Source: Bacteroidaceae bacterium
GTDB lineage: Bacteria > Bacteroidota > Bacteroidia > Bacteroidales > Bacteroidaceae
NCBI GenBank assembly: GCA_024401215.1
Contig: JAKSLL010000037.1
Coordinates: forward strand, 1-33,830
Direction of reading: 5' to 3'
DNA: 33,830 bases
The number at the start of each line of letters is the position of its first letter. Within the stretch, counting starts at the first letter, position 1. Both the position numbers and the translations under genes were made by a program. Below, one piece after another: positions 2,379 to 30,667 of this stretch. The notes beneath the pieces are model-generated. The model had not been told where the DNA came from, did not search any database, and saw only the letters and a program-made list of their open reading frames with translations.

Positions 2379-3015
2379 CTCTCAGCTCTTTGATGACCTT
2401 TTCGGGGTTGTCGTTGCCGAAGACATAGCTGCCAGCAACGAGGACATCGACACCTGCTGCGGCGAGGCGTGGGGCTGTCTCTCCGTTGACACCTCCATCG
2501 ACTTCGATGAGGGCGTGGCTGCCTGTGTCGCTGATGAGCTTACGCAGTCGCTTGACTTTCTCTATGGAGTGTTCGATGAATTTCTGTCCTCCATAGCCTG
2601 GGTTTACGGTCATGAGCAGCACCATATCGACATCCTGGATGATTTCTTCGAGGACGGACACGGGGGTGTGGGGGTTGAGTGTGACTCCTGCCTTCATGCC
2701 AGCGTCGTGAATCTGCTGGATGGTGCGGTGAAGATGCGGACAAGCCTCATAATGCACGTTCATCATGTAGGCTCCGAGGTTTTTTACTTCGTTGATGAAT
2801 TTCCAAGGTTCGACAATCATGAGGTGAACGTCGAGCTTTTTCTCACAATGCTTAGCTACTGCCTTGAGGACAGGGAAGCCAAAGGAGATGTTTGGCACGA
2901 AGACGCCGTCCATGACGTCGAGGTGCAGCCACTGGGCATCGCTGCGGTTAATCATGTCGATGTCGCTCTTCAAGTCGATGAAGTTGGCTGAAAGGAGGGA
3001 AGGGGAAACTATCAT
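2371..3015 (-). CDS. rpe: Ribulose-phosphate 3-epimerase
   Basis: Cytoplasmic TIM-barrel enzyme of 214 residues, the usual family length. It interconverts ribulose 5-phosphate and xylulose 5-phosphate in the pentose phosphate pathway. Visible signatures are SPSLLSANF at the N-terminus, HLDVMDGVFVPN (residues 31-42, metal-binding His and catalytic Asp), MTVNPGYGGQKF (phosphate-binding loop) and IEVDGGVN (second catalytic Asp). The gene runs directly into comEC with an 8-bp overlap. Immediately upstream of the ATG the minus strand is a run of 8-bp CCACAAAA-like units instead of a normal leader, and no TAnnTTTG box is seen in the 210 bp up to the next gene. Transcription may therefore come from the coiled-coil gene upstream or from an atypical promoter. 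Confidence 0.96.
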   Translation of the reverse strand: MIVSPSLLSANFIDLKSDIDMINRSDAQWLHLDVMDGVFVPNISFGFPVLKAVAKHCEKKLDVHLMIVEPWKFINEVKNLGAYMMNVHYEACPHLHRTIQQIHDAGMKAGVTLNPHTPVSVLEEIIQDVDMVLLMTVNPGYGGQKFIEHSIEKVKRLRKLISDTGSHALIEVDGGVNGETAPRLAAAGVDVLVAGSYVFGNDNPEKVIKELRGE

Positions 3016-3084: not shown

Positions 3085-3120
3085 GGAGCGGTTGGCCGAT
3101 TTTCGGAATCTCTAAAGCTC

Positions 3121-3194
3121 CTAGAATTTCTAGACTCTCTATACTCTCTAGAATTTCTAGATCTCTAGATCTCTATACTCTCTAGAATTTCTAG
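3121..3194 (+). repeat. 9-bp CTAG-containing tandem array
   Basis: CTAG occurs at 3121, 3130, 3148, 3157, 3165, 3182 and 3191, with degenerate CTAT at 3139 and 3173. This gives a 9-bp period with two 8-bp steps. Typical units are TCTAGAATT and TCTAGACTC. The array lies between the coiled-coil gene and rpe. Confidence 0.85.
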
Positions 3195-3225
3195 AATTGA
3201 TCGGTCCCGTTTTTGGGCTACACCA

Positions 3226-15763: not shown

Positions 15764-15837
15764 TTGGTAAAAGTATAAGTGGTGTTTAATAAATATAAAT
15801 ATTCTACAAGAGTTTCTCGTGAATAAAAGAATTAGTA

Positions 15838-15845
15838 CAAATGTA
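15838..15845 (-). promoter_or_regulatory. Probable -7 box of the GH3 gene
   Basis: Minus strand TACATTTG matches TAnnTTTG, 75 bp before the ATG at 15763. The -33 position has only TTTAC. Apart from this box and the hairpin at 16059-16088, the gap 15764-16159 shows nothing recognisable. Confidence 0.5.
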
Positions 15846-16058
15846 CAACAATATCATGGCATTACGTAAAAATGTTATGAGAAATAATGCATATTGAGGA
15901 TAAATTGATTGTGTTAGATGCTTTGAACTGTGAAATTGTCCACCAATTTGATGGACGATATAGGTTCATCAGCAAAAACTAAACTTTCCGAAGTTTTTAT
16001 TTCACCTACTTATACATCGAGAAAAACAAGAAGACACTTCAAAAATACGTAATAGAAA

Positions 16059-16088
16059 GAGTCAGCCACATTGAATTGTAGCTGACTC
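16059..16088 (-). terminator. Terminator of the small-gene cluster
   Basis: GAGTCAGC (16059-16066) pairs perfectly with GCTGACTC (16081-16088). After one C-A mismatch, ACA pairs with TGT around a 6-base loop. Read on the minus strand it is followed by TTTCTATT. It lies 72 bp beyond the stop of the last small gene. Confidence 0.7.
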
Positions 16089-16159
16089 CGACTGTTCTTC
16101 ATACATTATGCTTTCATGGACTTCAGAAACAGGTCCACACATCATGCCGCTAATGCAAA

Positions 16160-16333
16160 TCACAAACTTTTCAAAAACGCAAAGAAGCCTATCAAGCCCA
16201 ATGCCCCTGCGCCAGCTTTAATGATATTGTTTCTCTGCTCTGGAGAAGAATGCTTATACATATCGCTGACGGTGTCTACCATCTGCTTCATCTTGTCGAT
16301 GCCGCTTTTTGAATCAATTAAAGAATTGTTCAT
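16160..16333 (-). CDS. 57-residue amphipathic/membrane small protein
   Basis: Short frame running from the ATG at 16333 to the TGA at 16160-16162, easily missed because of its length. The N-terminal ~38 residues are polar and helical (MNNSLIDSKSGIDKMKQMVD, then TVSDMYKHSSPEQRNNIIKA). The C-terminal ~20 are a glycine-rich hydrophobic helix, AGAGALGLIGFFAFLKSL, long enough to enter or span a membrane. It is the last of five co-directional small genes, 40 bp after the 121-residue gene and ahead of a good terminator, which supports it as real. An overlapping plus-strand frame over the same bases is its antisense shadow. No family recognised. Confidence 0.65.
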   Translation of the reverse strand: MNNSLIDSKSGIDKMKQMVDTVSDMYKHSSPEQRNNIIKAGAGALGLIGFFAFLKSL

Positions 16334-16373
16334 GTTGTTTTTTTGATTTTATGATGTGGTACTTTTTTTATTT

Positions 16374-16739
16374 TCAACTCTCTCTCAAACTATCCATCAA
16401 TTCTTCGTGAGCAGCAAGGCTATTCATCCACTTGTCTTTGATTTTATCGTCAACAACATCGTCAAGGACCACATACTCAGAATTAAAGATCAGTCTGAAA
16501 TTTTCAAATTCCAGTTCTTCATCAATTATTTTCTTAAGTTCATGCTCGTCATATACGCTACATAGCAATTCCTCCTGCCCAAACAGCATTAATGTGTCGA
16601 TCATAAACATATACCCAACGGTCTCTGAATACAGCTTGATGAAATCGGCGTAGTGAGACAGTTCTCTGAAAGATCTGCTCTGGACAGCCTTCTCTATTTT
16701 CTGCTTCCCTGCAAAGAACTTTTCAACGATTGATTTCAT
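16374..16739 (-). CDS. Hypothetical 121-residue soluble protein
   Basis: Predicted soluble, mostly helical and acidic protein. It starts with a basic helix (MKSIVEKFFAGKQKIEKAVQ), a Tyr/Phe-rich middle (about 28-55) and a strongly acidic second half (ELKKIIDEELEFENFRLIF, VVLDDVVDDKIKDKW). There is no signal peptide or membrane helix. Its start lies 11 bp after the end of the DUF1232 gene, so the two are very likely cotranscribed and may work together. I do not recognise a family. Confidence 0.7.
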   Translation of the reverse strand: MKSIVEKFFAGKQKIEKAVQSRSFRELSHYADFIKLYSETVGYMFMIDTLMLFGQEELLCSVYDEHELKKIIDEELEFENFRLIFNSEYVVLDDVVDDKIKDKWMNSLAAHEELMDSLRES

Positions 16740-16750
16740 GTCATTACGTT

Positions 16751-17143
16751 TTACTTGCCCATAACCATCTTGTACTTCTGCAGCTCATCATGAATCTGTT
16801 TCATAGCCCATAGTATAACTGTGACATCATCGGTAAAACCCATGACAGGTATTGCGTCTGGAATCAAGTCAATAGGACTTACCACATAGATGATTGCCGC
16901 AACGGCGATTGTGAGCTTCACAATAGAATACCCCTTATACCGACCTTTTGCGATGTCTGTGACATAGTCAATCAACAGAGTCAAGTCATCCAACACATCG
17001 GAAAGACCAACTTTCCCCAGAAGAGATTTTGCGTCTTTCACAAGTTCAAGCATCTTAGACGGATTGCCAACATAATCTGCTGCCTTACCAATCCAATCTG
17101 CCTTGAAATTCTTTACTATAAAATTTTTGTCCATATTTTTCAT
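16751..17143 (-). CDS. DUF1232 (YkvA-like) membrane protein
   Basis: Protein of 130 residues. The diagnostic DUF1232 motif is at 84-104: a hydrophobic segment IIYVVSPIDLIPDAIPVMGF followed by TDD. A helical N-terminal half (about 28-68) and a short C-terminal helix surround it. DUF1232 proteins are small membrane proteins of unknown biochemical function, known in Bacillus as YkvA. The ATG at 17143 is preferred: a longer form from a GTG at 17188 would add 15 residues with no similarity to the family. ATG 17134 is also possible. It is the third of five co-directional small genes. Confidence 0.85.
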   Translation of the reverse strand: MKNMDKNFIVKNFKADWIGKAADYVGNPSKMLELVKDAKSLLGKVGLSDVLDDLTLLIDYVTDIAKGRYKGYSIVKLTIAVAAIIYVVSPIDLIPDAIPVMGFTDDVTVILWAMKQIHDELQKYKMVMGK

Positions 17144-17226
17144 TTTTTTTAATAGTAAACAAGTTAATTCAAGCGACCGTATAACCACTCATGTGAAGCT
17201 TGCTAAACTGAGTTGTTAACTGAAAC

Positions 17227-17475
17227 TTAGTCGCCTTTGATCCAGCTAACAATAGCCTTCACCCAATAAAACAGAAGCACTAACGCAAATAAGTAAGCAA
17301 TCCAAAGCAGGCAAGTACAATAAATCGTGATAAAAATATTATCACATTTAATGTACACCCATTCAAAACTTCCTAACTCATCTTGGTAAATACTTAGAGT
17401 AACCAATGTTCGTATAATCTCACCAATGACAAGAAATGCTATGCATCCCAATCCACCAGTATTTTCCTTTTTCAT
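17227..17475 (-). CDS. Small two-helix membrane protein
   Basis: Protein of 82 residues with two predicted membrane helices (about 8-30 and 48-74) joined by a short acidic loop containing SIYQDELGSFEWVYIKCDN. The C-terminus KAIVSWIKGD is basic then acidic. Two cysteines (Cys11, Cys44) lie near the helices, with another at 53. No family recognised. It is 41 bp after the 78-residue gene and 83 bp before the DUF1232 gene, within the same minus-strand run. Confidence 0.65.
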   Translation of the reverse strand: MKKENTGGLGCIAFLVIGEIIRTLVTLSIYQDELGSFEWVYIKCDNIFITIYCTCLLWIAYLFALVLLFYWVKAIVSWIKGD

Positions 17476-17516
17476 AACGATTGCTTTTTTGATTACTATT
17501 CATTTATGCGCTCTGC

Positions 17517-17753
17517 CTACTGCATCATCGTCATATATTGTCGCCGGTCAACCCATGTATCCTTCTCACAGAGCGACAACGCAAAATCCTCCTGAGTGTT
17601 GAAAATCTCAACCCACTCATTTGTCTCGTATTTCTTCTCAAGAGCGAGTATGTCATCCGTAGGATTTTCAAGACGCTTCAACTGACTCAGACTCTTTGAA
17701 ATTTCAACAGCGAAATACTTCCTTCCTTCAAACAAACTTTCTATGTTCATCAT
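17517..17753 (-). CDS. Hypothetical 78-residue soluble protein
   Basis: First gene of the five-gene run. The protein is polar and helical, without signal peptide or membrane segment, and reads like a small alpha-beta domain (MNIESLFEGRKYFAVEISKS, EWVEIFNTQEDFALSLCEKD). Two adjacent ATG codons (17753 and 17750) could serve as start. A TAnnTTTG box and a palindrome lie 14-38 bp upstream, so this is the promoter-proximal gene. No family recognised; a DNA-binding or antitoxin role would be a guess. Confidence 0.6.
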   Translation of the reverse strand: MMNIESLFEGRKYFAVEISKSLSQLKRLENPTDDILALEKKYETNEWVEIFNTQEDFALSLCEKDTWVDRRQYMTMMQ

Positions 17754-17766
17754 ATTATTATTTTAA

Positions 17767-17791
17767 AGTATAATTTTATACTGCAAAAGTA
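17767..17791 (-). promoter_or_regulatory. Promoter box with overlapping palindromic operator
   Basis: Minus strand TACTTTTG (17791-17784) fits TAnnTTTG. Immediately downstream is a 16-bp palindrome at 17767-17782, AGTATAA-TT-TTATACT, with perfectly matching 7-bp arms. It covers the predicted start of transcription (about 17778). A repressor bound there would block the small-gene run. No TTTG -33 box is present, which also fits an activator-dependent or regulated promoter. Confidence 0.55.
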
Positions 17792-17845
17792 CAACCTATC
17801 TCATATAGTTAGATTAAAAAATTAGCAAATACAATAAATAAAATA

Positions 17846-18220
17846 TCATTTTGCATGCGTTTTGTATTGAAATACAAAATACGCGCAACAAAACAAGGCG
17901 TTTGTGAGGTGATGAGAATGAATTTCGTTGTGTACAAAGGCAAAGTCAGCGAACCCTTTTCCTGAAGGCAACTCCCTAATGACATTATAATAGGCAGGAG
18001 CCGTGAAGTATGCCATAGTTACAACACATGACAATGCATTTTCATCGTTATATTTCAACGCAGAAGAATATGTCTCATGTGCAAGCTCTGTATTTTCCGT
18101 CACCTTGCCCTCTTCCTTATCAATTGTAGCCCATAAAAAATTATTACAATTAGCAAGTGTCGCTTCAATCTCCTTCCAATGTCCTGTCTCAAGTTTGGTA
18201 CAGTTAGAAGATTGGGTCAT
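17846..18220 (-). pseudogene. Remnant of DUF1703-type AAA-ATPase/PD-(D/E)XK nuclease
   Basis: The frame encodes residues typical of the C-terminal nuclease half of a large Bacteroidales family (AAA-ATPase-like plus PDDEXK_9). These include AHETYSSALKYNDENALSC, then YYNVIRELPSGKGFADFAF, which contains the conserved Asp of the nuclease fold. Two things are missing: the whole N-terminal ATPase part, and everything after GFADFAF, where the family continues with a 'VELK' catalytic strand. Here the frame runs into unrelated residues and stops. It is therefore a truncated relic of a gene normally over 500 residues long. It is squeezed between the terminator of the giant gene and the promoter of the small-gene run. 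Confidence 0.75.
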
Positions 18221-18230
18221 ATGAAATATA

Positions 18231-18260
18231 AAAGGGAGCATCGATGAAGATGCTCCCTTT
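18231..18260 (-). terminator. 11-bp stem terminator of the giant PL11-like gene
   Basis: AAAGGGAGCAT (18231-18241) pairs perfectly with ATGCTCCCTTT (18250-18260) around an 8-base loop. It lies 40 bp past the stop codon at 18300. Short T runs on both sides allow bidirectional function. Confidence 0.85.
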
Positions 18261-18299
18261 TTCATTGTACTGCTATACGGCTTGTTGCCGCAAGCGATA

Positions 18300-21200
18300 T
18301 TACTTAACGCTGACGAGGATGATGAGGCTTGTGACATCGGAGATGTCGATAGATTTATCATCATTGATATCAGCAGCATTGTAAGTGTCTGTACTCTTTC
18401 CGAGGATGATGCTTACGAGTGCATTCACATCAGCGATATTTACAGAACCGTCATGGTTGACATCACCCTTAGCGAAGAGTGGCTCCTCTGGCTTCTCGCC
18501 GAGATAAGTGAGTTTCATGTTATCCCAGATAGTCCAGTCTGTGCCCTCATGCAAAGTCTTCTTGACACCGATTCTCAAAGTGCCGTCAGTAACCTCGACT
18601 TCAACCTCATTGTTATAGAGACCGAGCTCGAATGCATTCTTTGCCTCAAGCTGTGAGAATGGCATCTTGCCTCCATTAGCAGCAACTGCTTCTTCATCAG
18701 CAATAGACATGAGAGGAGTCTGAGCGTCGTTAGCATAGAGGAAAGAATTGATTTTTTCTGTTCCTGCTGCATGAGCAGCCGCTGCAACATCGTTAGTGTT
18801 TTCTGTTGTGTTGTTGTAGCGATAGAAGCCCTGAGCAGAGAGTTTGTAGATACCATTTGGAAGACCTGTGAGAGTCTGGTAGCTGTCGAAGAGCTGTGAG
18901 TTGCCTCCCCACATCTCAGCATTCATGTTTTGTGCGTATGTAGCATTCTTGCCATCTCCCTTGTTTGGCTTGTTGCCTTCCCACTTGTTAAACTCAGTGT
19001 TGTTGCGGCTGAAGTTAGGGTCAGCAATGAGGAATGTCATGTCAACAGGGGTTTCAGCTGATGCTGCAGATGCGTTTGCTGCAAGCACCTCGCTCTTTGA
19101 AACAATCTTCCACAATGAAGCGTTATTAGCCTCTGTACCGTTGAAGTTGACAATGTTGCCCTCGTTGACAGCAAGGAGTTTGCCATCATTCTTGATTGTG
19201 AAGATGCCGTCGCTCACCATTTCGATTGTGTGGTTGGCAGCTGGCTGATCCATGAATGTGTTGTCGCCAATACCGAGGTAGTGGTTGTCGCCACCATTAG
19301 AGATGTGAGTGTCGATAGTGTAAGTGCCGTCTTCATTCATCTTAAGAGTGAGGAGCTGTCCGTAAGTTGTAGCAGAAGCCTTTGTGCCCCATGCGTTTGC
19401 ACCATTGAGGAAGAGTCCAGACTCTGCATTCATGATGTAGTAGTCGCCGTTAGCAATAACAGGCTCGAAAGGCTCTGGTTCAACAGGCTGCTCTTCTTCC
19501 TTAAGTGGCTCCCAGAATGTGCAGAGAGTCCAGTATGAAGGTTCAGCAGAAGTTTTAGTGCCTGCGAGGTATGCTGTATTGCCGACATTCTGGAGAGTGA
19601 ATCCTTTTCCTTCAACATACTGGAGATTCCAAACAGCACCATTCTGCATGTCTTGTCCATTCTGTTCGTTCAAGCCGAGGTTGAATGTCACACCATCCTC
19701 AGCAGGCTGTGCGTTGAGGTAGCATACTGGGTTGCCCCAGAGATAGTAATTAGACTCTCTATCATATTTGATTGTCTGCAAGAGGTAACCTCCGTCAGTT
19801 TTCTCAAGCTTGTAGTAGTTTGTGGCTGCTTCCTCTGCGAATGCCTTTTCTGCTGTGTCGTACGCCATGTTCTGAGCGTCGCTGCCATACAAAGCTTTGT
19901 TGTCGTTGAGGTTGACGATTGCAAATACATTTGAACCGATCTCTTCGATGCTTGTGAAAATCTTTGTTGGCTCAAGAGGTGTAACTTCCTCTGCAATCTC
20001 TTCTTCCTTCTCGCCGAAGTAAGTGAGGCGGAATGTGTCGAATATTGTCCACTCTTTTACCGCTTCGCCGTTGCGAGTTACACCGATAGTAAGAGTGTTG
20101 TCTGTTACGACGATGTTCTCGATAGTGTTGACGTATGCGCCAGTAGAGAAACATGCAGCAGCCTCAGCCTGTGAGTTAGGGATGAAGTATGCACTTGAGT
20201 TTGTAGCCCAACCGCCTTCGGCAGTATTCTTAGCTTCAGAGAAGACAGACTTCATAGCAACCTTCTTGTCGTTAGCAAAGAGTGAAGGCAGAATTTCTGT
20301 GCCAGCCTCAAATGCACTTGCAGCTGCAGGATCAGTAGCATCGCCTTGGCGGTAGAAGCCTTGCATTGTCAATGTGTAAACACCATTAGGGATGTCGGTG
20401 ATTGTCTGAGATACTGTGTATGTACCTTTGTTCCACACCTCGCCGTTAGTGCTGTTTGTGAGTTCACAATTCTGACCTCTGTCACCACCAATTTGGACGC
20501 CTCCTTCCCATGCTGCATTTGCTATGTCTTCGTTGAGGAAGTCTGGTGCCTTGATATAGACTGTTGCATCAACAGGTGCAGAAATGCTTGCATTTATGAG
20601 CTGCTCTTTGCGTGCCTGTGGTGTTACGAACTTCCATATAGAGCCGAATGTTGGCTCGTCTAAGAACTGAGGAATGAATGAATCTCCGTTATGAGAATAG
20701 TATTTCGTACCGTTGAACAATACAAGACCGTCGTCAGTATCGAGAATTTCCCATTCGCCGCTTTGGTCATTGAAACCATCGCTTGGGCGGAGTGCCTTGT
20801 CGGCGCCCTTAATGCCAGACTTAAGAGTGTACTTCTTTGTGCTCTCGTTGTAAGATATCTTATAGAGGATACCCTCGCTGCCAAGAACAGCCTGAGTGCC
20901 CCAGTGTGCGCCATTAGAAAGATATGAGTCGGCTTCCACATTATATACAAAGTATTCGCCATCTTCGAGACGGAAAGCAGGTTCTTCTGGCTCAGGTTCT
21001 GGCTCTTCAGGTGTTTCGCCTGATGCCTCCTTCTGTGGGTTCTGGACAGTAATCTTTGTGATGTATGAAGATGCGTCGTTATATGTGCCCTTAGTCATAC
21101 AGAATCCAAGATTTCCGTCTGTGAGCATTGTCACGCGATATCCGCCATTGATCTTCTCTACATTCCATGTACCGTCGCCTTCGCCACCTCCTTTGAAGTC

Positions 21201-24200
21201 GATAGGGAACTTGTCAGTATTAGCAATGTTGAATGTAACAACAGCACCTGCATTGAGGTTGAGGACAGCTGCCGAACGAGTAGCGTTGAGCATACCCATA
21301 CCATAACCTTCACGAATGATAGTGCCTTTGCCATTCCATTCGTTAGTGACAGCCTGGAATGCAAACTCATTGCCCATCACAGTAGGTGAAACACACTTGT
21401 AGATGTCCTGATAGCGAGCATTGCCAATCTCCCATGCAGTACCAACTTTCTTATATTGGCCATTGTCGTTGTTAGAAATGACACTCTTGTCAGCATCCCA
21501 GCTTGCAAAGTCATAGACTGTGACTGTTGTGACAGTTGAAGAGAGGCGTTCGAGCTTGATAGCGCCAAAGGCGAACCAGCCTGCTGTGATATTGATAGGG
21601 CATCCAAGCTTGATAGTGAGTGTGCCATTGTCGTTTGCAACATAAGCGTATGCCTCGTTGACATACTTGCCTTCATTAAACTTAACGTTAGCTTCTGCTC
21701 TGCTGTTTGGATTGCTTGTATTAGTATATGCGCTTGCCCAGTCTTTGATCTGTACCTGCTTGCCATCTACTTCCATATAAGCTATTGACATGCGGTTGTC
21801 GGCAAGTGTTGCGCAGTCTGCGTAAGTACCTTGACGATAGAGGGCAGGGAGTGTAACACGGTAGAGACCCTTCTTCAAACCTGTTGCAGTCTGTGTGAGG
21901 TTTACTGTGCCCTGGAACACTTCATATACATTGTTTTCAGCAGCAAGACCAAATGTAGTGTTTGGAATGGCATTTGTACAGTTTTCTTCAACAGTAAGCT
22001 GTGAAAGGTTGCTGTAGTTTTCTACAGTAATGCCAGCCAGTTCTGCAGCTTGTACGGCAGCCTGCTCTGTGCGGTTAGCGATGATAGCATTGCGCTCAGC
22101 TACAGTGACGAGCTTCCAGTAGCTGTTGCGAAGGTCAGGAGTGTTGACTGCGCTTGAGTTGTTAGCTACACGATAGAGCTCTTTTGTGTTGATGTACATA
22201 TTGCCATCATCAGCAGCATTGGTGTTGTTGTGGAATGTGAATGTGTTCTCCATTCCGCTAACAGGTGCGAGGAGGTATTTTGTTGCATTCTCAGCTGTGC
22301 TGTTAGCTTCTGTCCAGTACATGCCAGAGTAGTATCTGCTGTTGTCTGCCTGCATGAGTGAGTATGTAGAGCCAGAAGACTGGAATACCATTGGCACACC
22401 GAAGTTGTCAACCTGAGCGTTGTTGCCGTTGCGGCTGAGGAACTTGTCCTGAAGTTCATTATATACATAGAAAATCTTGCCGCCGATGTTGAGAGGGTCG
22501 CCAGAGTTGTCAGAAACCTTTGAGTTGCCGATGTGGAGATAATACTTGCCACCATTAGCAAAAACCTGAGCAACACTTCCAGACTTGCCATTAGGTGTCT
22601 CAACTACGATGTCGCCGAGAGAGCCTGAGCCAAGTGTGCCGAAATCACCAAGCAGGTAATCGCCAGCAGCAAGGGCGCCATTTGAATGGATTTCAAATAC
22701 AGGTGCAGAATAACGTGGACCATACTGCCAGTTGCGCTTGCGGATGTCAATGATGCCTGTGATGTCGAGTTTGTCACCATTAGCATTGTTTGCGCCATTG
22801 AAGTCGAATACGATACGAGAACCCTCTTTAATGCTGAGGTTGCCGACTTTCATGTGAGCATAACCATTGTCAGTAATCAAAGGAGTTGATATTGCCTGAC
22901 TTGTGATGTAAAGAGCTGAGCCATATTCCATTTCGATGGACTTATACTCGCTTTCCTGAGCATCCAGGCTGTTTCCAAGGAAGAGCTCTGTGTGTATGTT
23001 TGCCCAAATTGGACTATAAAGCACGCTACCATTACAGATGAGTGCGCCATCCCACACATCAGTCTTTCCTGAATGGGTGTGATTGCCATAAGAGAAATGA
23101 GTAGCAGAAGCACCCTGCTTACAGATGTTTGTTGTTCCTGTGAATGGTTCACCTGTGAAACGAACGCGGTCCCAGGTGTGCTTTGTCTCTTTGTATGCCA
23201 CCTGATCTCCACCTTCGATAGTTGTGCGTGAATTGATGAAGAGGGTAGAAGGACAAGCATTTGCATTCACCTTGATAGAGCGTTCCTGACCTTCGCCGTA
23301 TGTCATGATAAGCACATCCTTACCACCGATGAGCGAACCACGAAGTTCACCGTTATAGTCTGCACTTCTTCCTGTCCAAGTGAGTGGAGGAGGAGCTTGA
23401 GTCAATCCTTCAAGTTCACCTACGAAGAAGCTTGGATGAGGAGGCTGGTTGTAACCTTCTGTCTGCCAAACCATTGCCTGACGATACTGGTGGTCGTACC
23501 AGAGGGATGGCATACGGTTGGTAGTTGGGGTTACAGTAGTATATACACGAAGGAAGCGGTTGTCGGAAGAACGCATCACGATTTCTTCGCGCCAGTCACC
23601 GAGGATATCGCCTGTAGCACAAGGGTTCTTCTTTGTGCCGTTGATGTTCGTCGTTTCATAGTTACCATGACCAGTATCAAAGATACGACCTCCCCATTTA
23701 TCCACAAACAGATATCCTTCAGATGCACCAGGACCGTTGATTGTCTCCGATAGGAGGTCTCCGTCCCAATAGATGCGGAAGTTGAGAGCGATAGGATTTG
23801 GGGTGTTGGCATTCCAGTTATTAGCTAATCCGTTGATGTAAGTCGGAGCTGTAGGATTAGGCTGCACATAACTTAGAGGGATAATTCCTGATGAAGTAGA
23901 AGCTCCCTGTCCGCCAGGGTAATCGTTTGTGAAGTTTCCTGCCATAGCTCGTCCATCATCTCCACCAGCAGTGGTGCGGGCGTAAATCTCACATGTGGCA
24001 GCATTGCGGAAGTTGTTGCCAGGGCGCTCTTCATTACAAGCAAACGTCTCCAAACCTTTGCGGTATGGGTCTAAGTCACCTGTGTGTGATGCGTCACCAT
24101 GACCAAGTCCTGTAGAAGACATGCCATGAAGACTTGTGTCACCAGTGTGGAAATCAAGAACCATCGAACCATATATGATTTCATCGCTTCCATCAAGATC

Positions 24201-25328
24201 AACATCTGCTATTGAGAAGTTGTGGTTACCCTGGCCATACCAACCTGCATTGTTGTAACTGTGCCAAGTGCTTCCAACCTTGTACAGTTTATTAGTGCTC
24301 TTGTTCACTCTATAAGTACAAGCATCAATCTTTGTGTAAATACCACGACCAAGGAAGATGTATGGGTTGATACCATCAAGATATGGGGCTCCCATAAAGT
24401 ATTTGCTTGAACGGTGTCCGTAGCCATCTCCCCAATCAGAAGCTTTACCACGAGGGAGAGGATAGCTGATGACATCGTATGCTTTTCCTGTACGGCCATC
24501 GATGTACATAAGCCACTCCTCACCAGCATTTGTGAATGTCGCGTTTGCTGAGTGGCTAATACCGCCTCGGATATTCTCAGATGCATTACCAATCACACGA
24601 GTTGTACCATCGCTGTGGTGAAGCACCGTATTCGCTCCACCACGATAGAGCACTTCGCAGGCACCATCTTCGTTCCAGTCGAATGCTACGGCATCCCACT
24701 GCTCGTCAGCACCATAACAGATGTTTGGACCACAGTCTATCCACCACAATCTGCCGTAGTTGATAGAAGATGCATAGCATTCTATGTGTGCAAAGTATAA
24801 GCCATTGTTAGTTGGAAACAAACTGTTTGCATCCCACATGTTTTTACGCTTAACAATGAAGTCAATTTTTCCGTCACCGTCCACATCACCTAATGCGACA
24901 TCATTGATAGCATAGTCTCCCTGATCAATCACTTTACCGCTTGAGTGCTTCCAGATGGTAACTCCATTACTAGCCTGTACGTTAGCCATTGGGATTTCAA
25001 GATACTGCTTAGCCCAAGTGGCAGATGCTGCGCATTGAGCTCCTACTACACCATTTTTTACTGGTGCAACGGTATATGTGCTTGAAGTGTTTCCTCCTGT
25101 ATCTGAATAGTTAGATGCAAGAAGATTTTGGGCTATTAGTGACCCATTGCGATAAAGATTGTAAGTGACGCCATAGTATTCGTCAGCTTGAACTCGCCAG
25201 CTTACAAACACACCTGAATTTGTCTTCACTGCCACCAGACCGCGATCAAGAGGGTCAGTCTTGCGCTGTGCCGATGCCGTGATTACACTTACCACAGCAA
25301 TGAGTAAGCATAATAGGATTCGTCTCAT
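18300..25328 (-). CDS. Giant secreted PL11-like rhamnogalacturonan lyase with dockerin
   Basis: Exported protein of 2342 residues. Order: signal peptide (1-20); PL11-like lyase (about 23-645); a beta-rich module (646-945); repeat module 1 (946-1262); a further beta module (1266-1432); a Pro/Glu linker (1437-1450); repeat module 2 (1452-1773); a single unit (1785-1940); a second Pro/Glu linker (1944-1956); repeat module 3 (1957-2277); a dockerin-like domain (2285-2342). The lyase part shows the Ca-binding FG-GAP-type motifs GDVDGDGKIDFIVKRK and DVDLDGSDEIIYG, plus GLGHGDASH, ILGDWREEIVM and GYNQPPHPSFF. PL11 cleaves the rhamnogalacturonan-I backbone of pectin. The KTAPG-type segment of typical members is replaced (VLYRGGAN), so activity may differ. 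There is no T9SS sorting tail. Confidence 0.88.
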   Translation of the reverse strand: MRRILLCLLIAVVSVITASAQRKTDPLDRGLVAVKTNSGVFVSWRVQADEYYGVTYNLYRNGSLIAQNLLASNYSDTGGNTSSTYTVAPVKNGVVGAQCAASATWAKQYLEIPMANVQASNGVTIWKHSSGKVIDQGDYAINDVALGDVDGDGKIDFIVKRKNMWDANSLFPTNNGLYFAHIECYASSINYGRLWWIDCGPNICYGADEQWDAVAFDWNEDGACEVLYRGGANTVLHHSDGTTRVIGNASENIRGGISHSANATFTNAGEEWLMYIDGRTGKAYDVISYPLPRGKASDWGDGYGHRSSKYFMGAPYLDGINPYIFLGRGIYTKIDACTYRVNKSTNKLYKVGSTWHSYNNAGWYGQGNHNFSIADVDLDGSDEIIYGSMVLDFHTGDTSLHGMSSTGLGHGDASHTGDLDPYRKGLETFACNEERPGNNFRNAATCEIYARTTAGGDDGRAMAGNFTNDYPGGQGASTSSGIIPLSYVQPNPTAPTYINGLANNWNANTPNPIALNFRIYWDGDLLSETINGPGASEGYLFVDKWGGRIFDTGHGNYETTNINGTKKNPCATGDILGDWREEIVMRSSDNRFLRVYTTVTPTTNRMPSLWYDHQYRQAMVWQTEGYNQPPHPSFFVGELEGLTQAPPPLTWTGRSADYNGELRGSLIGGKDVLIMTYGEGQERSIKVNANACPSTLFINSRTTIEGGDQVAYKETKHTWDRVRFTGEPFTGTTNICKQGASATHFSYGNHTHSGKTDVWDGALICNGSVLYSPIWANIHTELFLGNSLDAQESEYKSIEMEYGSALYITSQAISTPLITDNGYAHMKVGNLSIKEGSRIVFDFNGANNANGDKLDITGIIDIRKRNWQYGPRYSAPVFEIHSNGALAAGDYLLGDFGTLGSGSLGDIVVETPNGKSGSVAQVFANGGKYYLHIGNSKVSDNSGDPLNIGGKIFYVYNELQDKFLSRNGNNAQVDNFGVPMVFQSSGSTYSLMQADNSRYYSGMYWTEANSTAENATKYLLAPVSGMENTFTFHNNTNAADDGNMYINTKELYRVANNSSAVNTPDLRNSYWKLVTVAERNAIIANRTEQAAVQAAELAGITVENYSNLSQLTVEENCTNAIPNTTFGLAAENNVYEVFQGTVNLTQTATGLKKGLYRVTLPALYRQGTYADCATLADNRMSIAYMEVDGKQVQIKDWASAYTNTSNPNSRAEANVKFNEGKYVNEAYAYVANDNGTLTIKLGCPINITAGWFAFGAIKLERLSSTVTTVTVYDFASWDADKSVISNNDNGQYKKVGTAWEIGNARYQDIYKCVSPTVMGNEFAFQAVTNEWNGKGTIIREGYGMGMLNATRSAAVLNLNAGAVVTFNIANTDKFPIDFKGGGEGDGTWNVEKINGGYRVTMLTDGNLGFCMTKGTYNDASSYITKITVQNPQKEASGETPEEPEPEPEEPAFRLEDGEYFVYNVEADSYLSNGAHWGTQAVLGSEGILYKISYNESTKKYTLKSGIKGADKALRPSDGFNDQSGEWEILDTDDGLVLFNGTKYYSHNGDSFIPQFLDEPTFGSIWKFVTPQARKEQLINASISAPVDATVYIKAPDFLNEDIANAAWEGGVQIGGDRGQNCELTNSTNGEVWNKGTYTVSQTITDIPNGVYTLTMQGFYRQGDATDPAAASAFEAGTEILPSLFANDKKVAMKSVFSEAKNTAEGGWATNSSAYFIPNSQAEAAACFSTGAYVNTIENIVVTDNTLTIGVTRNGEAVKEWTIFDTFRLTYFGEKEEEIAEEVTPLEPTKIFTSIEEIGSNVFAIVNLNDNKALYGSDAQNMAYDTAEKAFAEEAATNYYKLEKTDGGYLLQTIKYDRESNYYLWGNPVCYLNAQPAEDGVTFNLGLNEQNGQDMQNGAVWNLQYVEGKGFTLQNVGNTAYLAGTKTSAEPSYWTLCTFWEPLKEEEQPVEPEPFEPVIANGDYYIMNAESGLFLNGANAWGTKASATTYGQLLTLKMNEDGTYTIDTHISNGGDNHYLGIGDNTFMDQPAANHTIEMVSDGIFTIKNDGKLLAVNEGNIVNFNGTEANNASLWKIVSKSEVLAANASAASAETPVDMTFLIADPNFSRNNTEFNKWEGNKPNKGDGKNATYAQNMNAEMWGGNSQLFDSYQTLTGLPNGIYKLSAQGFYRYNNTTENTNDVAAAAHAAGTEKINSFLYANDAQTPLMSIADEEAVAANGGKMPFSQLEAKNAFELGLYNNEVEVEVTDGTLRIGVKKTLHEGTDWTIWDNMKLTYLGEKPEEPLFAKGDVNHDGSVNIADVNALVSIILGKSTDTYNAADINDDKSIDISDVTSLIILVSVK
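18303..18476 (-). other. Dockerin-like double EF-hand domain at C-terminus
   Basis: Residues 2285-2342 contain two 12-residue calcium loops in EF-hand order. The first is DVNHDGSVNIAD (2289-2300), followed by a helix. The second is DINDDKSIDISD (2320-2331). This is the type I dockerin pattern. No cohesin is encoded in the window, so its binding partner is unknown. Confidence 0.8.
18498..22493 (-). repeat. Three copies of a ~320-residue non-catalytic module
   Basis: Residues 946-1262, 1452-1773 and 1957-2277 of the giant protein share an order of parts. First comes a tyrosine-rich 'YxxxN...FL...' domain with a trailing W-K-(L/F/I)-V segment. A beta-sandwich-like domain follows, with G-(V/I/L)-Y-x-(L/V), (G/A)-(F/L)-Y-R, a small-residue-rich loop and a closing LTY-(F/L)-GEK in copies 2 and 3. 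Copies 2 and 3 are closest; copy 1 is more diverged. Carbohydrate binding is likely but unproven. Confidence 0.65.
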
Positions 25329-28651: not shown

Positions 28652-30667
28652 ATGTATATGAATAAATGTTTTTTGTTTGTCTTTCTTCTGCTTTGTTTGC
28701 AGGTAAAAGCACAGCAGGTGAAAGAAAGACTCAATAGGGCGCCAGTGGCTGTCACGGCGTCTAATGGTATTCTTGTGTCTTGGCGTTCATTGATAGATGA
28801 CAAAGAAGGGGCTACTTTCAATGTGTCAAGGAATGGCAAGAGGGTGGCATCTGGCATCACAACGAAAACGAACTTTCTGGATGCAGAAGGCAAAACTGGC
28901 GATGTGTATGTGGTGGAGACTGTTTGCCAAAATCAGGTAGTAGAAAAGAGTGAGTGTAAGGCTTGGGGAAGCATCTTTACTAAAATTTCAATAAGCAAAC
29001 CACCAGTTCAAACGGCAGCAAATGGCGCAAAAGGTTATTATCGTCCAGATGATGCAAGTGTGGGTGACCTTGACGGTGATGGCGACTATGAGATTGTGTT
29101 GAGATGGATTCCTAATAACAGCAATGACAATGGGCATAATGGATTCACGTCTCCTTGCATCTTCGATGCTTATGAGATGGATGGCACTTTGTTGTGGCGA
29201 CTGAATCTGGGTTTGAATATTCGGTCGGGCAATCATTACTCTCCTTTTTTAGTTTATGACTTTGATGGTGATGGCAAGGCGGAATTTATATGCAAGACTG
29301 CTCCAGGCACTATTGACGGAGTAGGAAGGTATGTGTCAGAAGCTTCTGCTGATGATAGGATTAAGTCTGTTGATAATAGCAAGGTGTATGTAAATGCTGC
29401 TGGTCATGTTTTTGGAGGAGAGGAGTTTCTGACGGTTTTTGATGGACAAAATGGTGCGGCAAAGAACACAATCTGGTATGCTCCAAATAGAAGCATGAAT
29501 GTTGGCGGTGAAAAGATGGAATATGGCGATTGGGAGACTGTTATGGGCAAACCAACAAATTACAATCGCGGAGAACGATATAATGCTGCTGTGGCTTACC
29601 TTGACGGTGAGGAGAGGCTTCCGTCTGCCATAATGGAAAGAGGATATTATACTTATTGCTTTTTGTGGGCTGTGGATTGGGATGGCAAGATTTTGAAAAC
29701 CAGATGGCTGCACAGAGGTAATCGTGACGGATGGGAGGTGACAGATTCCCTCGGTCACGTCCTGTCAAGTGGTAAAGGTGCGTCGAGTTTTGGCCAGGGT
29801 GTACATAGCATATCAGTAGCCGACGTCGATACAGACGGCAAAGATGATATTGTTATTGGTGGCGCGACAATCTCACACGATGGAAAACTGAAATGTTCAA
29901 CAGGGTTAGGACATGGAGATGCCATTCATCTTACTGATTTATGTCCAGATAGGGCAGGACTTGAAGTGATGATTCCGCATGAGGAGCGTCCGTATGGTTA
30001 TGATGTTCACGATGCAGCAACTGGCGAACTGCTGGTGTATCGTAAAGGAGAATTCGATAATGGAAGGGCATTGGCTTGCGATTTTATCCCTAAAAATAGG
30101 GGATATGAATTTTGGACTATAGCTGAGCGTGGAATATTTGCGTGTAGCGATGGCAAGAAACTTCTTGACGCACAAGCTGATATGAATTTCAGAGTGTATT
30201 GGACAGGCGACCCTTATGATCAGACTTTCGACGGGCGTTTCAATAAACGTGCTTTCCGAAGTTTTCCTCGTATATGCTCGTATGATAGTGCAAATGACAG
30301 GATTGTGACATTTATAGAGTTTGCTGATTATGGTAACCCTTCAACATGCAATTACACGAAGTCTGTTCCTTGTCTTCAAGCAGATTTGTTAGGAGATTGG
30401 CGTGAAGAGATAATCATGTATCAAGTCGATAGAGATGGGAGTGAAGAGAAATATAATCTTGTGATATTCTCAACCCCAGAGGAGACGGATTATAAAGTAC
30501 CATGTCTGATGCAGGATCATGTGTATAGGTTGGGTGTGGCGTGGCAGAATTCATCTTATAATCAACCACCTCATCTTGGTTTCTATCTTCCTGATTATCT
30601 TGGAATAGATGGAGATAAGTATGTCACAAAAGTTGAGTCGCATGCACCTAAATACGTGAAGGAGTAG
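28652..30667 (+). CDS. Secreted rhamnogalacturonan lyase, PL11
   Basis: Exported enzyme of 671 residues (signal peptide cleaved after about KA20; ATG at 28658 is an alternative start). A short N-terminal beta domain (about 22-112) is followed by the eight-bladed PL11 propeller. Signature segments are GDLDGDGDYEIVLRW, YDFDGDGKAEFICKTAPG, VADVDTDGKDDIVIGG, GLGHGDAIHLTDLCPDR, ADLLGDWREEIIMY and SSYNQPPHLGFYLPDYLG. The DxDGDG loops bind calcium. The enzyme cuts the rhamnose-galacturonate backbone of rhamnogalacturonan I by beta-elimination. Unlike the giant homologue it keeps the KTAPG segment and has the length of a stand-alone lyase. It lies 13 bp before hrpB. Confidence 0.93.
   Translation: MYMNKCFLFVFLLLCLQVKAQQVKERLNRAPVAVTASNGILVSWRSLIDDKEGATFNVSRNGKRVASGITTKTNFLDAEGKTGDVYVVETVCQNQVVEKSECKAWGSIFTKISISKPPVQTAANGAKGYYRPDDASVGDLDGDGDYEIVLRWIPNNSNDNGHNGFTSPCIFDAYEMDGTLLWRLNLGLNIRSGNHYSPFLVYDFDGDGKAEFICKTAPGTIDGVGRYVSEASADDRIKSVDNSKVYVNAAGHVFGGEEFLTVFDGQNGAAKNTIWYAPNRSMNVGGEKMEYGDWETVMGKPTNYNRGERYNAAVAYLDGEERLPSAIMERGYYTYCFLWAVDWDGKILKTRWLHRGNRDGWEVTDSLGHVLSSGKGASSFGQGVHSISVADVDTDGKDDIVIGGATISHDGKLKCSTGLGHGDAIHLTDLCPDRAGLEVMIPHEERPYGYDVHDAATGELLVYRKGEFDNGRALACDFIPKNRGYEFWTIAERGIFACSDGKKLLDAQADMNFRVYWTGDPYDQTFDGRFNKRAFRSFPRICSYDSANDRIVTFIEFADYGNPSTCNYTKSVPCLQADLLGDWREEIIMYQVDRDGSEEKYNLVIFSTPEETDYKVPCLMQDHVYRLGVAWQNSSYNQPPHLGFYLPDYLGIDGDKYVTKVESHAPKYVKE

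Follow-up and report, generated by a model that had tools for sequence, protein, structure and literature searches.

Do five small genes lying head to tail on a contig of a Bacteroidaceae bacterium make up a conserved, regulated membrane system that has escaped description, or are they a set peculiar to one lineage? The genes, here called A to E, lie in a window of 33,830 nucleotides (the whole stretch of DNA analysed, i.e. positions 1 to 33,830 of contig JAKSLL010000037.1). All five were found at the places, on the common strand and with the product lengths (78, 82, 130, 121 and 57 residues) given by the first-pass annotation, which had proposed such a system:

17517..17753, minus strand: gene A, 78 aa, acidic (-5), without a hydrophobic segment, orphan.
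17227..17475, minus strand: gene B, 82 aa, two hydrophobic segments (both strong), orphan.
16751..17143, minus strand: gene C, 130 aa, DUF1232 (PF06803), one hydrophobic segment.
16374..16739, minus strand: gene D, 121 aa, strongly acidic (-11), without a hydrophobic segment, orphan.
16160..16333, minus strand: gene E, 57 aa, marginal C-terminal hydrophobic segment, orphan.

The intergenic gaps, calculated from the coordinates, are 41, 83, 11 and 40 nt. For gene C, the list of open reading frames (ORFs) gave a GTG start at 17188 and a length of 145 aa, and the start was set to the ATG at 17143 because the extension scores as non-coding (-0.87 bits per codon by the codon score). Two or three membrane products, as had been estimated, is a fair count in view of the hydrophobic stretches in B, C and, marginally, E.

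The five ORFs occupy 89% of the 1,594 bp that they span, whereas 2,000 dinucleotide-preserving shuffles reached 21% in the median and 71% at most, and this coverage is beyond chance. Codon use was scored with a model derived from 11 larger window ORFs and referred to 84 open non-coding windows (95% level 0.041, highest 0.198). Genes A (0.080), C (0.247), D (0.099) and E (0.159) scored above the 95% non-coding level, with A, D and E below the highest non-coding window, while B (0.020) fell inside the non-coding range. The score is a blunt tool, since even within the training set two of the 11 ORFs reach no more than 0.025 and 0.008, similar to B. With B scoring low and an antisense ORF at 16356-16565 scoring high (0.194), codon use alone neither proves B nor excludes all antisense frames.

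Signals that might govern expression of the cluster, and the remains of a gene next to it, are situated as follows:

17784..17791, minus strand: TACTTTTG box, fitting the TAnnTTTG -7 box and starting 38 nt ahead of gene A's ATG.
17767..17782, no strand assigned: palindrome AGTATAA-TT-TTATACT with arms of 7 bp, close to where transcription would be expected to start, of chance-level frequency.
16058..16089, minus strand: terminator-like hairpin of 13 pairs, loop 6, 3' of gene E.
18230..18261, minus strand: terminator-like hairpin after the upstream gene for a 2342-aa protein, between that gene and the cluster.
17849..18223, minus strand: decayed gene fragment directly upstream of the cluster, with a weak PDDEXK_9 match (Pfam E 0.11).

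According to PMC7366714, the -7 consensus in Bacteroides is TAnnTTTG, and 5' UTRs in B. thetaiotaomicron are most commonly 23 nt long, with a median of 32. The position of the TACTTTTG box together with these lengths would be compatible with a transcription start within the palindrome. Such a box occurs on the same strand in 15% of mononucleotide shuffles (n=5,000) of the 100 bp upstream. Together with the gene content, the box points to Bacteroidota. A TTTG element 17-22 nt upstream of the box was looked for and not found; the same source describes this element as not identifiable in another Bacteroidota species. The first-pass annotation had the box overlapping the palindrome and read the latter as an operator. 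Both elements are indeed present, but they stand 1 bp apart and do not overlap. Over the whole window, perfect inverted repeats of this kind (arms of 7, loops up to 6) are about as frequent as expected, 18 being present where 10 shuffles average 17.7; of 500 shuffled versions of the upstream 100 bp, 30% carry one. Operator-repressor control would call for a palindrome that is commoner than chance or conserved in relatives. At this chance-level frequency, and with no relatives found for comparison, the operator was rejected, and regulation through it is not supported.

The good terminator reported at the end of the cluster holds up in its hairpin, which is strong (fold z -4.9 for a 71-nt stretch), though not in its T tail, which is poor (TTCTATTACG). 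Terminator-like sites amount to four, against 1.1 expected, and there is a weak one of 7 pairs within gene B (17433-17449). The hairpin at 18230-18261 makes readthrough from the 2342-aa gene into the cluster less likely.

Some of these data would suit a reading in which the cluster consists of adjacent unrelated orphans, or decaying fragments, that share a strand and form no functional unit. The non-coding-like codon score of B and the low one of A, the terminator-like site inside B, the decayed gene immediately upstream and the lack of comparative support for the gene set all point in that direction, whereas the five uninterrupted ORFs with their short gaps, followed by a strong hairpin, argue against it, and we regard it as unlikely.

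Gene C is the sole member of the set to match a curated family, and its assignment to DUF1232 was borne out: residues 77-112 match PF06803 at E 5e-14 (52.2 bits vs a cut-off of 23). Its PHROGs match (E 5.8e-11) is to a family without known function, and nothing meaningful was found among PDB sequences. An alignment with 35 homologues, eight of which cover the domain part only, gives the motif P-x-D-x-x-P-D ... D-D after the hydrophobic segment, and gene C fits it with SPIDLIPD ... DD. From about residue 10 to residue 130, i.e. over nearly its full length, it aligns with same-genus homologues at 33-44% identity. A second DUF1232 gene in the same genome is 44% identical, and gene C is, judging by sequence, a diverged relative of that gene. 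Matches were found in 29 of 100 related genomes at E 0.001 (own genome left out) and in six of 246 other genomes at E 1e-10, in a sample spread across the order. Five plasmid records also match, four of them annotated as DUF1232 or YkvA. No match was found in phage records or viral contigs. The search of genome contigs was equally silent, which is uninformative on distant relatives because it missed DUF1232 proteins of about 40% identity. A quick tree places gene C beside more distant DUF1232 proteins with low support at the nearest nodes (0.25-0.27), compatible with an origin by duplication or by transfer. Among open-licence papers, the term DUF1232 occurred only in plant RING-finger surveys, judged by title, and one passage from a paper on YkvA and membranes does no more than list a YkvA gene. 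No description of the five-gene arrangement turned up in this narrow search; the first-pass annotation, too, knew of none.

The surroundings of DUF1232 genes were compared at 48 fetched loci, which reduce to 30 distinct places, and at five more, making 35 in all; about 1.5 to 3.5 kb was covered on each side where the contig allowed (only some 1.5 kb at 10 of the 30). When A to E were run against the 30 places with tblastn, C alone matched, bar one alignment of A at E 0.53, and at the five further places A and E gave short alignments only (E 0.075 or worse). At none of the 35 places, including that of the 44% identical copy in the same genome, did A, B, D or E have a convincing relative near DUF1232. 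In six out of 10 loci listed, again including this copy, an ORF near the DUF1232 gene looks like what we take to be purN. In other words, gene C resembles the DUF1232/YkvA family in its domain and in its nearly full-length alignment, but differs in its company, since the homologues stand without A, B, D or E. The first-pass annotation had named separate occurrence of the genes in relatives as evidence against its proposal, and for C this is what was seen. For A, B, D and E, the sampled genomes yielded no relatives in which separation could be compared.

Searches of Pfam, NCBIfam, PADLOC and PHROGs gave no usable match for A, B, D or E, the best being in PHROGs, where 13 residues of B align (E 0.0085). 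Gene B matches no Pfam family up to E 10. An assignment of B to DUF2569 (PF10754), considered because of a sequence pattern, was rejected, with no match in the own genome at E 0.001. Several other matches were treated as chance: for A, those with Sec20 (E 0.033, below the cut-off), with a beta-lactamase model (E 0.097) and, in the PDB, with a designed protein (E 0.023); for D, the one with a histidine phosphotransfer protein (E 0.36). Nothing meaningful was otherwise found for A and D among PDB sequences, and their single-sequence structure models are helical but of low confidence (pLDDT 55 for A, 57 for D), too poor to use.

Within its own genome, each of A, B, D and E matches only itself. 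Besides this genome, 300 were searched for A, 200 for B, up to 392 for D and 343 for E. At E 0.05, weak matches were found for A in nine of 300 (best 2.0e-4), for B in 14 of 200 (best 0.0026), for D in 21 of 392 (best 0.0014) and for E in two of 343; gene D had no match in 100 genomes at E 0.001 and one in 200 at E 0.01 (7.1e-4). The weak matches that were aligned, a part of the total, lie within unrelated longer proteins, in antisense frames or in frames with stops, and look like chance. The most suggestive, 45% identity to A over 31 residues (locus L079), runs antisense to a 505-aa ORF. The best genome match of A (locus L072) falls inside a 294-aa ORF, next to a gene presumably ABC-transporter-like. 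Some BLAST E-values among these look small (down to 6e-6) only because the loci had been preselected for a match and the database was tiny. Furthermore, neither the DNA at 15800-18300 in plasmids or phages, nor the A, D and E proteins in plasmids, nor A, B, D and E in viral contigs, nor D in genome contigs gave any match.

Conserved gene order in relatives, which had been put forward as a check, was thus not found within the genomes sampled. A conserved, regulated and undescribed membrane system, whose relatives would lie in unsequenced or untested lineages, could still draw on the compact order with gaps of 11-83 nt, on the hairpin at the end and on the fact that gene order was merely sampled, with up to 393 genomes per search. 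It has against it that the other genes were undetected at every DUF1232 place compared and that the aligned weak matches belong to unrelated proteins or to antisense or broken frames, and we consider it quite unlikely. Of the membrane-associated system proposed earlier, an operon with membrane products stays plausible, while a second copy of the gene set was not found. The cluster looks like a lineage-specific accessory set rather than a conserved new system, and the reading that we find probable, on a modest balance, is that the five small genes form an accessory operon restricted to one lineage.

The genomic setting adds to this picture. G+C content is 39% at 16-17 kb and 36% at 17-18 kb, compared with 46% for the whole window. 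This is not peculiar to the cluster, since 25-26 kb (36%) and 28-29 kb (39%) are equally low. Downstream of the cluster, Pfam identifies a GH3 enzyme with orthologues of 75-77% identity in nine genomes of the genus. The contexts of these orthologues differ, as in a comparison of 16 window proteins with 12 fetched loci only GH3 itself matched, and a search for empty sites via GH3 is uninformative because the orthologues sit in other contexts. The decayed fragment at 17849-18223 matches three longer genes of the same genome (527-568 codons) at 36-39% and is presumably what is left of an AAA-ATPase-like/PDDEXK_9-type gene. Together, the differing GH3 contexts and the decayed upstream gene suggest that the cluster probably sits in a rearranged spot.

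Such a spot, and small acidic soluble and small membrane proteins without found relatives, would also be in keeping with an orphan immunity or toxin-neutralising cluster, i.e. small, fast-evolving proteins directed against the toxins of neighbors. Orphan immunity genes of human gut bacteria are reportedly small orphan ORFs in a row, as in the present cluster. To our knowledge, DUF1232 is not an immunity family. Orphan immunity genes have been described in human gut bacteria (PMC12247911). The present cluster differs from them in that PADLOC gave no match to any of the five proteins at E up to 1, so that no component of a known anti-phage defence was recognised, and in that no toxin or recombinase relative was recognised nearby. 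A, B, D and E gave no usable family match that could tie them to a toxin-linked immunity gene, but such genes often lack family matches. Of 15 larger window ORFs compared with Pfam, two matched nothing and none matched a recombinase or secretion family. We consider an immunity role about as improbable as the conserved system.

If the cluster is indeed a lineage-restricted accessory operon, one transcript would begin at a promoter of the TAnnTTTG type immediately before A. The inner membrane would house B, C and probably E, and A and D would be cytoplasmic acidic partners binding these membrane proteins. An inner-membrane assembly of this kind around a diverged DUF1232 protein is a tentative proposal, which we rather doubt. 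The likeliest role of the operon would be that of a dispensable envelope-associated module, acting in membrane homeostasis or in protection against envelope damage; taken by itself, a protective role seems unlikely. It may have been gained horizontally, or be evolving too fast for relatives to be visible. A bolder version, in which all five products join in one inner-membrane complex and the acidic cytoplasmic A and D, along with the small membrane proteins B and E, hold a recruited DUF1232 protein, is very unlikely in our judgement. With no second example of the gene set, operon and complex are without comparative support. Were the complex real, it would give the widespread, little-studied DUF1232 family defined partners and hence a testable function, and an operon working as a unit would already attach partners to DUF1232. 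As it stands, the locus is mainly an example of small lineage-specific genes accumulating next to the diverged copy of a conserved gene.

Lastly, some further features of the window and its source may be mentioned. The source assembly measures 4.35 Mb with 7% contamination, compared with 2.1-3.7 Mb in 44 other genomes of the genus, so some of its contigs may be foreign. The 2342-aa protein encoded upstream of the cluster (18300-25328, minus strand) has a rhamnogalacturonan lyase 11 domain at its N-terminus and, at its C-terminus, what we take to be a dockerin repeat; a second family 11 lyase is found at 28652-30667. A short array with a 9-nt periodicity, in which TCTAGAATTTCTAGA is repeated 34 nt apart, is situated at 3109-3204, between ORFs ending at 3015 and 3226. 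Near the start of the contig, an inverted repeat (60-98 / 189-227) has 39-nt arms that are 95% complementary and 90 nt apart, each holding a CCCCC/GGGGG palindrome.
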